Shown piece after piece: positions 1-61,936 of a stretch of 64,000 nucleotides of DNA. This DNA comes from Ignavibacteria bacterium. Lineage in GTDB: Bacteria; Bacteroidota; Ignavibacteria; Tepidaquicellales; Tepidaquicellaceae. A program made the position numbers and the translations under genes. The stretch covers positions 1 to 64,000 of the forward strand of contig JAQTLX010000014.1 in the NCBI GenBank assembly GCA_028714695.1, in the 5' to 3' direction. Position 1 is the first letter of the stretch. The number at the start of each line of letters is the position of its first letter. Under the pieces are notes generated by a model, which saw only the letters and a program-made list of their open reading frames with translations, did no database searches and was not told the DNA's origin.

Positions 1-150
1 TTGTCAGTGCTTGGAGCATTGTGCGTGGTGCTTGGCGTTTTGTCAGTGCTTGGAGCATTGTGCGTGGTGCTTGGCGCTTTGTCAGTGCTTAGAGCATTGT
101 GCGTGGTGCTTGGAGCATTGTGCGTGGTGCTTGGTGCGGTGAGAGTGGTG
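1..150 (-). repeat. Coding tandem repeat (21-nt and 18-nt units)
   Basis: The 3' part of the HTH gene consists of direct repeats of a 21-nt unit encoding NAPSTTH, alternating with shorter units encoding PSTDK(T/A). All repeat lengths are multiples of three, so the frame is kept. The words AAGCAC and CACCACGCAC recur. The array reaches the window edge, so its full length is unknown. Confidence 0.85.
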
Positions 151-7655: not shown

Positions 7656-8689
7656 GGGATGCCCGGGCAGGGGAGGAAAGATTATCTCTTGGCAGAATCA
7701 AGAAGAGCAGAATCTAGAATCTAGGAGTTAGAATCTAGAATTCGAAGATTCGTCGCGGCGGGTTATAAAGAAGAGCAAAAGACAGAGCATCGTGACGAAC
7801 TAGAAGAAGAGCAAAAGAGTTTACCGCGAAGGACGCAAAGGACGCAAAGGATATTTTAGTTATAAGAGCAGAATCTAGAAGTTAGAATCTAGAATCTAGG
7901 AGTTAGAATCTAGAATTCGAAGATTCGTTGCGGCGGGTTATAAAGAAGAGCAAAAGACAGAGCATCGTGACGAACTAGAAGAAGAGCAAAAGAGTTTACC
8001 GCGAAGGTCGCAAAGGACGCAAAGGGTATTTTAGTTATTAGAGCAAAGAACAGAGCAAGAGATTTTACCGCAAAGGACGGTAAGGACGCAAAGAATTTTC
8101 TATTTATAAAAGCAAAGATATTCACCATAGAGGGCACAGAGATTTTTTTAGATATAAGAGCAAGAGATTTTACCGCAAAGGACGGTAAGGACGCAAAGAA
8201 TTTTCTATTTATAAAAGCAAAGATATTCACCATAGAGGGCACGGAGAGCAAAGAGATTTTTTGTTATAGAAGCAAAAGAAAGAGCAGGTTCACAAAGTCT
8301 CACAAAGGGTATTTTAGTTATTAGAGCAAAGAACAGAGCAAGAGATTTTACCGCGAAGGACGCAAAGAATTTTCTATTTATAAAAGCAAAGATATTCACC
8401 ATAGAGGGCACGGAGATTTTTTTAGATATAAGAGCAAGAGATTTTACCGCGAAGGACGCAAAGGACGCAAAGGGTATTTTAGTTATAAGAGCAGAATCTA
8501 GAAGTTAGAATCTAGAATCTAGGAGTTAGAATCTAGGAGTTAGAATCTAGAATTCGAAGATTCGTCGCGGCGGGTTATAAAGAAGAGCAAAAGACAGAGC
8601 ATCGTGACGAACTAGAAGAAGAGCAAAAGAGTTTACCGCGAAGGTCGCAAAGGACGCAAAGGGTATTTTAGTTATAAGAGCAGAATCTA

Positions 8690-8838
8690 GAAGTTAGAAT
8701 CTAGAATCTAGGAGTTAGAATCTAGGAGTTAGAATCTAGAATCTAGGAGTTAGAATCTAGGAGTTAGAATCTAGGAGTTAGAATCTAGGAGTTAGAATCT
8801 AGGAGTTAGAATCTAGGAGTTAGAATCTAGGAGTTAGA
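8690..8838. repeat. 14-bp tandem repeat (GAATCTAGGAGTTA)
   Basis: Roughly ten units of GAATCTAGGAGTTA, itself a pair of heptamers (GAATCTA + GGAGTTA), run almost without interruption. Some positions carry GAATCTA twice or GAAGTTA instead, without losing the 7-nt phase. CTAG, usually a scarce tetranucleotide in bacteria, appears in every unit. Confidence 0.9.
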
Positions 8839-8947
8839 AACAAAAAAACTAAAAACTAAAAACTAAAAACTATAGAGTAGAATCAAGAATCAAGTTGAAA
8901 CGATTATTGATTTTAATCTCCAATTTCCCATTTTCCATTTTCCAAAT

Positions 8948-9307
8948 TCCGTTTTCCGAATTCTGTTAAGAGCCGGCATACAGATAAGAGCAGGATTTGA
9001 ACGGATATTCGCAGATAATTTTCTTTATTTATAAGAACAAGCGATTATCCATTTTCATTTTCCAAATTCCGTTTTCCGAATTCTGTGAAGAGCAGGCACA
9101 CAGATAAGAGCAGGATTTGAACGGATATTCGCAGATAATTTTCTTTATTTATAAGAACAAGAGATTATCCATTTTCATTTTCCAAATTCCGTTTTCAGAA
9201 TTCTGTGAAGCGCCGACACACAGATAAGAGCAGGATTTGAACGGATATTCGCAGATAATTTTCTTTATTTATAAGAACAAGAGATTATCCATTTTCATTT
9301 TCCAAAT
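8948..9307. repeat. 120-bp tandem repeat, three copies
   Basis: Three copies with an exact 120-bp period, anchored at ACGGATATTCGCAGATAATT at 9001, 9121 and 9241. Differences between copies are few substitutions. Each unit includes a C/T-rich heptamer-like run (TTCCGTT, TTCCGAA, TTCTGTG). Confidence 0.92.
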
Positions 9308-9634
9308 TCAGGTTTCAATTTTTCACACGGATGTTAATAAACAAAAAAAATGGACTTGATATTTTTAATGGCGTTTTTTAATTATTGAGTGAGTATTAGT
9401 CCGTACCGTCGTTTTATATCTGAATTTTCCCTGAAATAAATTTTCATGTGCGATATATTTTTCCGGATTGTTGTTTTAAGAGATTTGTAATTTAGGAGAT
9501 TACGGATTGGAGGGGATATAAATGAGGAAACAAGATTAAGAGAGCAGAATCTAGAATCTAGAATCTAGAATCTAGGAGTTAGGAGTTAGAAGAGCAGAAT
9601 CTAGAATCTAGAATTTAGAATCTAGGAGTTTGAA

Positions 9635-9680
9635 GTCGAAGATTCGTGTGAGCGAATCGAAGACCCGCCGCGGCGGGTTA
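9635..9680. repeat. REP-like palindromic element
   Basis: Two adjacent dyads: GATTCG-TGTGAG-CGAATC (9641-9658) and the perfect 14-bp palindrome CCCGCCGCGGCGGG (9664-9677). The same pair recurs at about 10455-10500 and 10685-10730. It resembles REP/BIME-type intergenic palindromes, but no REP-associated transposase is present in the window. Confidence 0.7.
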
Positions 9681-10202: not shown

Positions 10203-10280
10203 TTCAATCTTCAATCTTCAATGTTCAATGAAGAGAGGAAAACAAAATCAGGAGTTAGGAGTTAGAAGTTAGTAGTTAGA

Positions 10281-10892
10281 GATGGCAAACGGAGACACGT
10301 CGCGGCGGGTTATAAAGAAGAGTAAAAGACAGAGCATCGTGACGAACTAGAAGAAGAGCAAAAGACTTTACCGCGAAGGTCGCGAAGGACGCAAAGGATA
10401 TTTTAGTTATAAGAGCAGAATCTAGAATCTAGAATTTAGAATCTAGGAGTTTGAAGTCGAAGATTCGTGTGAGCGAATCGAAGACCCGCCGCGGCGGGTT
10501 AGTAGTTAGAGATGGCAAACGGAGACACGTCGCGGCGGGTTATAAAGAAGAGTAAAAGACAGAGCATCGTGACGAACTAGAAGAAGAGCAAAAGACTTTA
10601 CCGCGAAGGTCGCGAAGGACGCAAAGGATATTTTAGTTATAAGAGCAGAATCTAGAATCTAGAATTTAGAATCTAGGAGTTTGAAGTCGAAGATTCGTGT
10701 GAGCGAATCGAAGACCCGCCGCGGCGGGTTAGTAGTTAGAGATGGCAAACGGAGACACGTCGCGGCGGGTTATAAAGAAGAGTAAAAGACAGAGCATCGT
10801 GACGAACTAGAAGAAGAGCAAAAGACTTTACCGCGAAGGTCGCAAAGGACGCAAAGGATATTTTAGTTATAAGAGCAGAATCTAGAATCTAG
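10281..10892. repeat. 230-bp tandem repeat, 2.7 copies
   Basis: GATGGCAAACGGAGACACGT recurs at 10281, 10511 and 10741, giving an exact 230-bp period. Each unit contains the 110-bp module, a short heptamer run and the REP-like palindrome pair. Copies one and two look identical or nearly so; the third diverges after about 150 bp. Confidence 0.93.
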
Positions 10893-11268
10893 AATCTAGA
10901 AGTTAGAATCTAGAATCTAGAAGTTAGAATCTAGAAGTTAGAATCTAGAAGATAAGAACAAGAAATCAGAATCAAGAGAGCAGAATCAAAAGAGCAGAAT
11001 CAAAAGAGCAGAATCTAGAATCTAGAAGTTAGAATCTAGAAGATAAGAACAAGAAATCAGAATCAAGAGAGCAGAATCAAAAGAGCAGAATCAAAAGAGC
11101 AGAATCAAAAGAGCAGAATCAAGAGAGCAGAATCAAGAGAGCAGAATCAAAAGAGCAGAATCTAGAATCTAGAAGTTAGAATCTAGAAGATAAGAACAAG
11201 AAATCAGAATCAAGAGAGTAGAATCAAAAGAGCAGAATCTAGAATCTAGAAGTTAGAATCTAGAATTC
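10877..11268. repeat. Phased heptamer tract, 56 units
   Basis: From AGAATCT at 10877 to AGAATTC at 11262 (385 bp apart, exactly 55 x 7), every unit is a heptamer drawn from a small set: AGAATCT, AGAAGTT, AGAAGAT, AAGAACA, AGAAATC, AGAATCA, AGAGAGC and AAAGAGC. No insertion or deletion breaks the phase. Higher-order blocks of the same heptamer order are also repeated. Confidence 0.93.
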
Positions 11269-11494
11269 GAAGATTCGCTGCGGCGGGTTAGGACTAATGA
11301 TTGAAAATCAAAAACTAAAGAGTTGCGGCGGGTGCAGCGGCGGTAGCAGGGATTCTGGGAGCGACATATTTTGGGGTAGAGGTCACGAATAAAATGCGGA
11401 AAATAGATTTACATAATATCTTTATTTTGATAGAATACTTTTATATTTTACGGTTACAGATTAATTTTTTAATGTAACAAATTAATTATATTTT

Positions 11495-11797
11495 ATGGGC
11501 ATTTTATTCGAGATAAAATACAAGATACATGATTCAAAGAGGGAAGAATACCTTGATTTAGTTAAAAAACTGAGGGCTTTTTATCTGAATAACGGTATTA
11601 AGGATTACAAATTATACGAAGACGAAAGAGGTCAGAACGAATTTACGGAAGTATTCTTATTCGCAGATGCGGAGAGTTTCGAAAAATTCGAGGATGACAC
11701 GAATGAAGACGTCAATAATTTGCTGTCAATTCTTGTGAGTGAGTTGGTAGTTGACAAAAAAGTCAAATACAAAACAAAAAAAGAAGTTCAAATATAG
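11495..11797 (+). CDS. ABM-like small alpha/beta-barrel protein
   Basis: A 100-residue protein from ATG 11495. The pattern of an N-terminal strand (LFEIKYKIHDSKREEYLDLV), a helix, a strand ending in LYEDERGQNEFTEVFLFAD and a helix (AESFEKFEDD) is typical of the dimeric ferredoxin-like fold of antibiotic-biosynthesis-monooxygenase-type proteins. It lacks a signal peptide. It is 27 bp upstream of pgpH and probably shares its transcript. The fold is likely; a specific activity cannot be assigned. Confidence 0.65.
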   Translation: MGILFEIKYKIHDSKREEYLDLVKKLRAFYLNNGIKDYKLYEDERGQNEFTEVFLFADAESFEKFEDDTNEDVNNLLSILVSELVVDKKVKYKTKKEVQI

Positions 11798-11824
11798 CCG
11801 TATTTCCATTTTCGGCTTTTGAAT

Positions 11825-14080
11825 ATGCCCAAAACTAAGCAAAATAGTTTTTCGGCTTTTTTTGAGAATATACGAGTCTCACAGCCAGAAAAAAATATCA
11901 ACATCAAGATTCTCATCGCAGTTGCTACAATAGTTATACTCAGTTTGCTGCTCCCTTCTTATAAAAACATAGATACAAACATAGAGGTCGGAACAATCTG
12001 GTCGAGCGAAGACCTTATTGCGCCGTTTACATTTCCAATTTACAAAGATGAAGCGGACTTAGAAACGGAGATAAAGGAAGTTCAGAACAATATCGTACCT
12101 GTTTTTCTCGAAGTATTTTCATATAACGGCAGACAGAAGGATACAATAGATACATATTTCAAGAAACTTGAAAATCTTCTCAGCCAGTTGGCTAAGCAGG
12201 ACAAGTCAGCGAAAAAGTTGGAGGTATACAGGAATTTAAAGGACGAATTGAAAATCGGTTTGACGGAAGAGCAGTGGTCGTATCTTACGAAGTTTTACAA
12301 AGGGGAAATAAAGGATGAAAGCGGTTATAAATACGGCGACTACAGCCGTTTGATAATAAAAGAACTGAACGAGGCGGGTAAGATTCCGATTATAAATTAC
12401 GACAAGTCAAAAATCATATCGAAGAAGATAGCAATCAAGAAAGCCGATGATAAAATGCAGAGGATTGAGAACGTAGACAGATACAATACGCTTGACGAAT
12501 CCAAAGCAAAGTTCAACGCGGGCATTTCGCAGGGAATCAAAGACAACAATCTTATAATCATAGCGGGAATTATTTCAAATGTTTTCATAAAGGAGACATT
12601 GTTTTACGATAAAGAACTTACGGACCTGGAAATACAGAACAGGGTTGACCAGATACCTAAATCGATTGGGATAGTAAAGGAAAACGAGAGGATAATAAGC
12701 AAGCACGACCCGATTACGAAGTTAACGAAGTTGAAACTTGATTCATTCAAGAAAATCAGATTAGAGCGTTTGGGTGTTCAGGATTATTTCGCACAGGCGC
12801 TGGGGAAAATACTGACTGTAATAATTCTAATGGTTGTATTCGGATTTTATATGTTCTATTTGCGAAGGGACATATTCGAGAGGAATTCGAGGCTTGTTTT
12901 AATCAGTTCGCTTATGATACTTGTAAGTTTCTTCGCGTTCATGAGTCTGAATCTGAAGGTTAACGCGCCGATAGAACTGCTTATATTCATTCCGGTGGCA
13001 TCTATATTAATGACGATAATATTCGATTCGCGGTTATCGTTTTTCGTAGTTGTTATAATTTCATTTCTGATTGCGGCGATAAGGGGGGGCGATTACACGA
13101 TAGCGTTCATTTCATTTTGCGGTTCAGTTCTGGCGATATTCAGTGTAAGGGACATAAAGAACCGTTCGCAGATATTCAGGTCGTTCTTTTTCATAATAGC
13201 GGGTTACGCGATAGCGATATTAGCGATAGGGCTGGACAGGTCGGAGAGTTTATCGAAGATAGCGGTGAATCTTTCTTACGCGGCAGTAAATTCGATAATG
13301 TCGCCGGTTATAGCATACGGGCTTTTAATTTTTTATGAAAAGGCATTCAAGATTACGACGGATTTAACGCTTGTGGAACTTGCGGATTTCAATCAGCCGC
13401 TGTTGAGGGAGTTATCGGCTAAGGCGCCGGGCACATTTCATCACAGTGTAGTGATGGGTAATCTAGCGGAAGAGGCTGCGGCATCGATAGGCGCGAACAG
13501 GGTACTGGCGCGGGTCGGGAGTTACTATCACGACATAGGGAAGTCGGTGAAGCCTGATTTCTTTGTAGAGAACCAGATGGAGAAGATAAACAAGCATGAG
13601 AATCTTAATCCGACATTAAGCGCGAAGATAATAATAGCGCACGTGAAGGAAGGGATAGAACTGGCGAAGAGGTACAAACTGCCTCAGGAAATAATAGATT
13701 TCATTCCGATGCATCACGGCAGTACGCTTGTATCGTTTTTTTACAACAAGGCAAAGAACATAGCCGATGAGAACAAGGAAGACGTTCTCGATTACATATA
13801 CAGATATCCGGGACCGAAGCCGCAGAACAGGGAAACGGCGATTGTGATGCTGGCGGACACGGTAGAGGCATCGACTAAGGCGATAGAAGATCCGACGCCG
13901 AAGAAACTTGAGGACAAGATTGATGAAATCATAAAGAAAAGATTTATAGAGGGCGAACTTGATGACTGCGACCTGACGCTGAAGGATTTAACTCAGATAA
14001 AAAAGAGTTTTCTTAAGATATTAATAGGAATTTATCATCAGAGAATAAAATATCCTGAAGAAAAACCGGAAGATGAATGA
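11825..14080 (+). CDS. pgpH: 7TM-HD phosphohydrolase (PgpH/YqfF family)
   Basis: A 751-residue membrane enzyme from ATG 11825; a TTG two codons earlier is also possible. The order is: one N-terminal membrane segment (about 25-45), a large extracytoplasmic 7TMR-HDED domain (about 60-310), a seven-helix membrane block (about 325-520) and a cytoplasmic HD domain. The HD domain has HHS at 539-541, the metal-binding HD pair in YYHDIGK near 569-570, and MHHG further on. PgpH proteins in Firmicutes hydrolyse the second messenger c-di-AMP to pApA. Its stop overlaps the xerD start by 8 bp, so the two are translationally coupled. The family assignment is secure; the substrate here is inferred. Confidence 0.93.
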   Translation: MPKTKQNSFSAFFENIRVSQPEKNINIKILIAVATIVILSLLLPSYKNIDTNIEVGTIWSSEDLIAPFTFPIYKDEADLETEIKEVQNNIVPVFLEVFSYNGRQKDTIDTYFKKLENLLSQLAKQDKSAKKLEVYRNLKDELKIGLTEEQWSYLTKFYKGEIKDESGYKYGDYSRLIIKELNEAGKIPIINYDKSKIISKKIAIKKADDKMQRIENVDRYNTLDESKAKFNAGISQGIKDNNLIIIAGIISNVFIKETLFYDKELTDLEIQNRVDQIPKSIGIVKENERIISKHDPITKLTKLKLDSFKKIRLERLGVQDYFAQALGKILTVIILMVVFGFYMFYLRRDIFERNSRLVLISSLMILVSFFAFMSLNLKVNAPIELLIFIPVASILMTIIFDSRLSFFVVVIISFLIAAIRGGDYTIAFISFCGSVLAIFSVRDIKNRSQIFRSFFFIIAGYAIAILAIGLDRSESLSKIAVNLSYAAVNSIMSPVIAYGLLIFYEKAFKITTDLTLVELADFNQPLLRELSAKAPGTFHHSVVMGNLAEEAAASIGANRVLARVGSYYHDIGKSVKPDFFVENQMEKINKHENLNPTLSAKIIIAHVKEGIELAKRYKLPQEIIDFIPMHHGSTLVSFFYNKAKNIADENKEDVLDYIYRYPGPKPQNRETAIVMLADTVEASTKAIEDPTPKKLEDKIDEIIKKRFIEGELDDCDLTLKDLTQIKKSFLKILIGIYHQRIKYPEEKPEDE

Positions 14081-14990
14081 TTTAGACACATTAAAAAAAC
14101 TTTTCCTCAATCATTTAAGGCTTGAAAAGGCGCTTTCAGAAAATACAATTAGCAATTATTCACTGGACATAAGGTTTTTCATAAACTATCTGACTGAAAA
14201 GAAGAAAGTAACCGACGCGAAGAGCATAAGCGAGGGTGTGATTGAGAATTACATTTTTTATTTAAGAAATCTGAAGAACAAGAAAGACGATTATTATTCG
14301 GTTAAATCAATAAACAGGTATATATCTTCGATAAAATCATTTTTTAAATTTCTGGCATCCGAGAAGATAATTGACAAAAATCCTTCGGAGATAATAGAGA
14401 CGCCGAAGATATCGAGGAATCTGCCTCAGGTTTTGACGATAGGGGAAATAGATTCAATACTTAAGTTGACTGATAATTCCGATGTGCTTGAATTGAGGGA
14501 CAGGGCAATAATGGAAACGATGTATGCATCGGGATTAAGGGTAAGCGAGGTAGTAAATTTGATACTTCCGAACATATTTTTCGATGAAGGAATATTAAGG
14601 ATATTCGGAAAGGGTTCAAAGGAGAGAATAGTGCCGATAGGTAGTTCGGCTTTGCAGTACATAAACAAATATCTTGAAAAGAGCCGTCCGTATTTAAGGA
14701 AGCCGTATTCGGAGGACACGGTTTTTCTGAATCACAGGGGCAGGAAATTGACGAGGATGGCGATATGGAACATAATTTCGAAGTACGCGAAGAAAGCCGG
14801 AATAAAGAAGCAGATACATCCACACACGTTCAGGCATTCATTCGCGACGCATTTGCTTGAGGGCGGTGCAGATATAAGGATAATTCAGGAAATGTTAGGT
14901 CACAGCGACATATCAACGACGCAGATATATACACACATAGACAGGGAATATTTAATCGAAGTACACAAAACATTTCATCCGAGGGGGTAA
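14073..14990 (+). CDS. xerD: Tyrosine recombinase XerD/XerC type
   Basis: A 305-residue site-specific recombinase with an N-terminal SAM-like domain (1-110) and a C-terminal catalytic domain. All catalytic residues are present: R156 (ASGLRVSEV), K180 (FGKGSKER), H251 and R254 (HPHTFRHSF), H277 (MLGHSD) and Y286 (QIYTHID). Length and motif spacing fit the housekeeping Xer recombinases that resolve chromosome dimers at dif rather than an integron or phage integrase. The pairing with pgpH also argues for a housekeeping role. XerC cannot be excluded. No tRNA or att-like repeat is adjacent. Confidence 0.9.
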   Translation: MNDLDTLKKLFLNHLRLEKALSENTISNYSLDIRFFINYLTEKKKVTDAKSISEGVIENYIFYLRNLKNKKDDYYSVKSINRYISSIKSFFKFLASEKIIDKNPSEIIETPKISRNLPQVLTIGEIDSILKLTDNSDVLELRDRAIMETMYASGLRVSEVVNLILPNIFFDEGILRIFGKGSKERIVPIGSSALQYINKYLEKSRPYLRKPYSEDTVFLNHRGRKLTRMAIWNIISKYAKKAGIKKQIHPHTFRHSFATHLLEGGADIRIIQEMLGHSDISTTQIYTHIDREYLIEVHKTFHPRG

Positions 14991-61301: not shown

Positions 61302-61396
61302 AATGTAATAGTTAAGTTATTCTAAGGGAAAATCAATAATTTGGTTAATATAATCAATTCCGAATTAATTGATAATTCAGCGTATAAATTCAAAAG

Positions 61397-61936
61397 ACAG
61401 GTTCACGAAGGGACACAAAGAAGCACAAAGAGTTTTATAAAGTTAAGAACGAGAACCATCGACGGATTGTAAGAACCGACAAAAGACGGTTCACAAAGGG
61501 ACACAAAGAAGGCACAAAGAGTTTTATAAAGTTAAGAACGAGAACCATCGACGGATTGTAAGAACCGACAAAAACAGGTTCACAAAGGGACACAAAGAAG
61601 GCACAAAGAGTTTTATAAAGTTAAGAACGAGAACCATCGATGGATTGTAAGAACCGACAAAATCAGGTTCATAAAGTATCACAAAGAAGGCACAAAGAGT
61701 TTTATAAAGTTAAGAACGAGAACCGTTGACGGATTGTAAGAACCGACAAAAGCAGGTTCATAAAGTATCACAAAGAAGGCACAAAGAGTTTTATAAAGTT
61801 AAGAACGAGAACCGTCGACGGATTGTAAGAACCGGCAAAAACGGTTCACAAAGGGACACAAAGAAGGCACAAAGAGTTTTATAAAGTTAAGAACGAGAAC
61901 CGTCGATGGATTGTAAGAACCGAACAGATGAAAGAA
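61397..61936. repeat. 89-bp tandem repeat array, about six copies
   Basis: GTTAAGAACGAGAACC recurs at 61442, 61531, 61620, 61709, 61798 and 61886, with spacings of 89, 89, 89, 89 and 88 bp; partial units lie at each end. Each unit contains a 10-bp dyad (for example CCATCGATGG or CCGTCGACGG) and three CACAAAG-like words 10-11 bp apart. Whole units are conserved, so this is not a repeat-spacer array. Confidence 0.95.

Follow-up and report, generated by a model that had tools for sequence, protein, structure and literature searches.

How can a noncoding tract of DNA hold an exact 7-bp phase through dozens of units while the words that fill those units change? The locus that raises this question lies at 10877-11268 on the forward strand of the window, by which we mean the whole 64,000-nucleotide stretch analyzed here, from an uncultured bacterium related to the Ignavibacteria. 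An earlier note, made from the letters alone, proposed that unit length and not sequence is what is copied or maintained. The tract is real, and we consider it very probable that it is a large compound satellite of heptanucleotides, of a kind already known, which arose by slippage or unequal duplication.

Composition and phase of the heptamer tract

The 392 bases of the tract split into 56 heptamers with zero phase slips, and the first and last anchors lie 385 bp apart, in agreement with the earlier note. Ten words occupy these units: AGAATCT (16), AGAATCA (12), AAAGAGC (7), AGAAGTT (6), AGAGAGC (4), AGAAGAT, AAGAACA, and AGAAATC (3 each), and AGAGAGT and AGAATTC (1 each). The first position is A in all 56 units, positions 1 to 4 stay near AGAA, and the variation falls in the last three positions. 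Identity within the tract is 0.538 at lag 7, 0.794 at lag 14, and 0.706 at lag 28; a first-order Markov null gives 0.340 at lag 7 (standard deviation, 0.029; maximum of 500 simulations, 0.426). The earlier exclusion of coding also holds, in that no ORF of at least 80 aa is found between 10203 and 11494 and hence none over the tract; the nearest downstream ORF, with its start at 11495, is 226 bp from the tract.

Written with one letter per word, the tract reads AAABAABABACDEFGFHFH / AABACDEFGFHFHFHFGFGFH / AABACDEFIFH / AABAJ. The block AABACDEFGFH is thus present in three higher-order copies that differ in their numbers of FH and FG pairs, and a tandem-repeat finder returned block repeats of 91 bp at 100% and 147 bp at 98%, which bears out the ordered word blocks already described in the earlier note. 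Because of these three copies, the evidence for a constant phase amounts to about 10 to 14 independent units, not 56; the 56 units are largely copies of about a dozen. Fourteen substitutions suffice to join all ten words.

A repeated intergenic element and its array alleles

The tract stands in a 3.6-kb stretch, from about 7.66 to 11.4 kb, that is nearly gene-free and rich in repeats. A composite element recurs there, made up of an array held between the ends ...TTATAAGAGC (or a variant) and TCGAAGATTCG...GCGGCGGGTTA, and three of its occurrences form a 230-bp tandem. The arrays and element copies are as follows.

7709..7741, + strand: paralogous array allele of 33 bp (5 mod 7), delimited by anchors
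7870..7916, + strand: paralogous array allele of 47 bp (5 mod 7), delimited by anchors
8493..8553, + strand: paralogous array allele of 61 bp (5 mod 7), delimited by anchors
8682..8839, + strand: paralogous array, largely (AGAATCT AGGAGTT)n
9596..9635, + strand: paralogous array allele of 40 bp (5 mod 7), delimited by anchors
10270..10499, + strand: copy 1 of the 230-bp higher-order repeat, matching copy 2 at 100% identity; its 40-bp array is at 10417-10456
10500..10729, + strand: copy 2 of the 230-bp higher-order repeat, with a 40-bp array at 10647-10686 (repeat finding, anchors)
10730..11290, + strand: element copy 3, its internal array expanded to a 390-bp tract and followed by the shared TCGAAGATTCG...GCGGCGGGTTA end
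10877..11268, + strand: the 56-unit heptamer tract (word split, anchored array)

In copy 3, the segment 10730-10901 is 99% identical to copy 2 and the right anchor is found at 11267, so that the anchored array inside the tract runs from 10877 to 11266 (390 bp, or 55 units plus 5 bases). The seven same-flank copies in the window have inter-anchor lengths of 33, 47, 61, 40, 40, 40, and 390 bp, and all of these are 5 mod 7. The three 40-bp alleles are identical in sequence, leaving five independent alleles, for which a common residue has a chance probability of (1/7)^4, or about 4e-4. The array at 8682-8839 enters an AAAAACT array (8844-8872) at its right end, not the shared anchor. The tract thus corresponds to copy 3 of the 230-bp unit, in which the array has been enlarged from about 5 to 55 units.

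Two other features of the same stretch were seen. Each 230-bp unit ends in the perfect palindrome ACCCGCCGCGGCGGGT (10484-10499 and 10714-10729), which is GC-rich in a window of 37% GC, and a 120-bp unit repeated three times (95% alike) at 8928-9316 contains ATAAGAACAAGAGAT, which is also found nearly unchanged in the tract.

Origin of the deviant words

Several words that depart from AGAATCT resemble bases at array edges. AAAGAGC is like the left-flank junction of TAAGAGC with AGAATC, from which it differs by one letter, and AGAGAGC is identical to the array front at 9539, where AGAGAGC meets AGAATC. The segment AGAAGAT AAGAACA AGAAATC holds ATAAGAACAAGAAAT, with one mismatch to ATAAGAACAAGAGAT at 9151 and 9271. 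New words were probably supplied by substitutions together with duplications that took in flanking bases: if a duplicated segment of 7k bases overlapped the edge of an array, the edge bases would become new words in the old phase. Phase is then preserved, since all the duplicated lengths are multiples of seven. Since the deviant words match the flanks, whole-unit duplication across the array edge explains a constant phase with changing words, and a special mechanism for measuring unit length need not be assumed. One segment speaks against so simple an account: AGAAGAT AAGAACA AGAAATC is a foreign-looking piece of 21 bp, and if it was a simple insertion, its in-phase length is a 1-in-7 coincidence.

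Period 7 across the genome

The genome was sampled as 1.26 Mb of stretches, of which 1,064,000 bases, including the window, were chosen regardless of motif. Arrays were counted if perfect, noncoding, and at least 20 bp and 2.5 units long. The earlier note had looked to a lag-7 excess elsewhere in the genome, and one is present: the 1.06-Mb sample holds 26 period-7 arrays with 15 distinct words, compared to 5 arrays when all the remaining periods between 2 and 13 are pooled, and noncoding autocorrelation calculated without the window region has small peaks at lags 7, 14, and 21 (0.302, 0.298, and 0.303; direct neighbors, 0.290 to 0.300). A further 11 arrays in this sample have period 14. Neither period-7 arrays in coding DNA nor arrays of period 2 to 4 were found in it, and an order-2 Markov simulation of the first 464-kb sample produced zero such arrays at any period from 3 to 15. 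Across the stretches examined, none of 84 arrays lies in an ORF of at least 100 aa.

AATCTAG accounts for 30 of the 84 arrays, some of the stretches having been chosen for it, and exact matches to AGAATCTAGAATCTAGAA number 52 in the whole genome but none when its letters are read backwards, so sequence matters besides unit length. Four further species of the genus were searched for AGAATCTAGAATCTAGAA, and three have it, whereas all the other relatives lack it; samples of the relatives G007 and G010 have few or no period-7 arrays; within the family, the expansion thus belongs to this genus.

The claim that unit length rather than sequence is maintained therefore stands only in part. A genome-wide noncoding preference for 7 across many words favors it, but the tract itself does not require it, given ten words joined by so few substitutions, a block copied about three times, and deviant words that match flanks, and by the AATCTAG and AGAATCTAGAATCTAGAA counts sequence matters too.

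Two possible common traits of the words were rejected. Hairpin-driven words were considered, AGAATCT being nearly self-complementary, but the words as a set are no more self-complementary than letter-permuted ones (0.12 versus 0.13), and their richness in TpA is not significant.

Heptamers in other lineages

(AGAATCT)3 was found in 79 stretches from many phyla, most frequently in Shewanella, and usually beside other heptamer words. With AATCTAG set aside, these loci hold 45 further perfect period-7 arrays of 33 words, compared to 14 arrays with any other period between 3 and 13. One Shewanella locus directly follows a conserved gene. Seven of its alleles measure 24, 24, 38, 45, 52, 52, and 59 bp, and each of these lengths is 3 mod 7. 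An eighth allele (L204) has a single unit and departs from the phase by 1 bp; a ninth lacks a real array. This locus is a case of stepwise whole-unit change in an unrelated lineage. In Shewanella canadensis (L092), a run of AGAAACT directly follows three AGAATCT units, a switch of words within one array.

These comparisons bear on whether the array instead spreads in a mobile element, or is laid down by a dedicated enzyme in 7-nt units. The occurrence of identical words in many phyla would suit such a process, as would the local multiplication of the surrounding 175- to 230-bp element in the window and its partial copies on other contigs. Full-length copies of the element, however, are confined to the one 3.6-kb region, and the partial matches elsewhere cover mostly the heptamer section. 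No terminal inverted repeats were seen, the sole inverted repeats being short CCCGCCGCGGCGGG palindromes, and the unit-wise length change at a fixed place in Shewanella needs no mobility. A viral vehicle was rejected, as 2.9 million viral contigs gave zero matches. Mobility or dedicated copying is, on balance, highly improbable.

Hardly credible is the proposal that the exact size and order of the tract are an assembly artefact. The tract does have exact 91-bp internal repeats, and the draft contigs C9, C26, and C28 begin or end close to such arrays; these breaks mean that the exact unit number may be wrong, but not the existence of the array. Misassembly could change the number of units but not create an array. 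Congeners have arrays built of the same words, as do genomes from other phyla that were assembled independently, isolates included, and the paralogous copies in the window follow the mod-7 rule.

The downstream operon and function

The tract is followed by a conserved set of genes.

11405..11494, + strand: promoter-like leader of the operon that follows; the congeners G001 and G002 conserve it but have no array upstream
11495..14990, + strand: downstream conserved genes
11495-11797, + strand: small ORF
11819-14080, + strand: 7TM-HD phosphohydrolase (PgpH-like)
14073-14990, + strand: tyrosine recombinase

The leader beside the small ORF is recognizably conserved in G001 and G002, and no heptamer array precedes the gene set in G001, G002, or G003, so the array is recent at this locus.

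The position of the tract, which ends about 140 bp before the promoter-like site of a conserved operon, invites the reading that it is a functional regulatory array, with units that bind a protein or RNA factor or a unit number that tunes the operon as a contingency locus; a role in translation has likewise been proposed for the TAACTGA heptamers of Beggiatoaceae in the account of PMC4679880. Yet the tract is placed ahead of the promoter-like site and is not part of the leader, and both operon and leader are kept in congeners without any array. Arrays in this genome occupy gaps of every orientation (20 convergent, 42 codirectional, and 11 divergent). Folding of the tract does not exceed that of shuffled sequences on either strand (z of -0.75 and -0.82) and an Rfam search of it gave zero matches; a structured RNA was rejected on these grounds. 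We regard a regulatory array as quite improbable. The tract probably has no function of its own and is, by itself, most likely ordinary noncoding DNA.

Mechanism and known systems

On the most probable account, a short array of AGAATCT and close variants is part of an intergenic element that has multiplied locally. The array of one such copy grew from about 5 to 55 units by replication slippage, unequal recombination, or both, processes in which whole 7-bp units and blocks of several units are gained or lost. What is observed here is that copies differ in length unit by unit, that blocks were duplicated, that the odd words are like the flanks, and that the array is recent at the locus; as the enzymatic process we infer slippage of the polymerase, with 7-nt loops that MutS misses. 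Loss of MutS was rejected as the cause, since the source genome has a full-length MutS. It has been argued that loops of 1 to 3 bases are well repaired and longer loops less so (PMC4060949), and the presence of MutS together with the lack of period 2 to 4 arrays fits a genome that repairs short loops but leaves those of 7 nt.

Heptanucleotide repeats of bacteria, and the slippage they undergo, have already been described in the accounts of PMC4679880 and PMC4692102 and in PMC13001214. For neuO of E. coli K1, slippage of an AAGACTC heptanucleotide over 3 to 53 units is experimentally established (PMC13001214), but that repeat lies within coding sequence and is phase variable, unlike the noncoding tract. 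Also close are the long simple sequence repeats (LSSRs) of prokaryotes, with units of 5 to 11 and heptanucleotides most abundant (Mrazek et al. 2007, as summarized in PMC4679880 and PMC4692102), which resemble the tract in unit length, mostly intergenic position, variety of words, and a proposed origin by polymerase slippage. The tract, like them, consists of head-to-tail 7-bp units beyond chance and lies outside coding sequence, as do all 84 arrays with respect to ORFs of at least 100 aa, and copy number changes by whole units among its paralogues (5 mod 7) and in seven of eight Shewanella orthologues (3 mod 7). The arrays here differ in being compound, with many words in one phase, and in sitting in a repeated element, one of them reaching 56 units. 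The passages on LSSRs in PMC4679880 and PMC4692102 make no mention of the genus of the source bacterium.

The TAACTGA repeats of Beggiatoaceae, Cyanobacteria, and Bacteroidetes are, in the account of PMC4679880, likewise intergenic heptamers mixed with other heptamers, with up to 43 copies and indels in 7-nt steps between Cyanothece strains. Their word is another one, and in the Beggiatoa genome they stand mostly just before start codons; the tract shares neither the word nor the position, and arrays here are found in gaps of every orientation. The GGGNATC repeats of Xanthomonas and Nostoc, as presented in PMC4692102, share a genome-wide intergenic distribution and variable copy number, but they are G-rich, have quadruplex potential, and favor four units, whereas GGG occurs in no word of the tract, which therefore lacks three G's per unit. 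The same source mentions heptanucleotides of Calothrix. For the question of why bacterial simple repeats favor 7 bp, this genome is a clean case: a single period is shared by many words, genes are free of such arrays, and copies between identical flanks differ in nothing but the number of whole units. Cyanobacterial heptanucleotide repeats, known as STRRs, are also genome-wide, intergenic, and variable in copy number. The tract adds an example of how duplications that spill over an edge can give a constant phase with changing words.

Slippage alone does not account for 7 over 5, 6, or 8. A 7-nt contact of DNA polymerase has been proposed, a suggestion that PMC4679880 and PMC4692102 credit to Mrazek et al. 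2007. A rather unlikely reading is that the replication or repair machinery of these bacteria has a natural 7-nt slip length, so that arrays could arise from almost any noncoding word and would persist better with stops in all six frames; because 7 is not a multiple of 3, a word with one stop on each strand closes all six. Words with stops on both strands make up 58% of the word clusters in this genome, compared to 26% expected (p = 0.008), and 35% versus 18% (p = 0.03) at the loci from other phyla once the AATCTAG cluster is left out, in tests where the word sets are small and share ancestry and several traits were tested at once. This weak trend, about twice the background of noncoding heptamers in two locus sets, is a lead only.

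Other repeats

Recurring nonamer repeats (CGCAAAGGA type and ACCGCGAAGGACGCAAAGGACGC) occupy intergenic DNA at 7830-8460 and at C6:600-1600 of G000, and phrases of the CACAGAGGA type, like the window nonamers, adjoin heptamers in MAGs of other phyla. The contig starts inside a 21/39-bp tandem array (GTGCTTGGAGCATTGTGCGTG) at window positions 1-150. Near the other end of the window, at 61391-61923, an intergenic 89-bp unit is repeated six times in tandem (93% alike).
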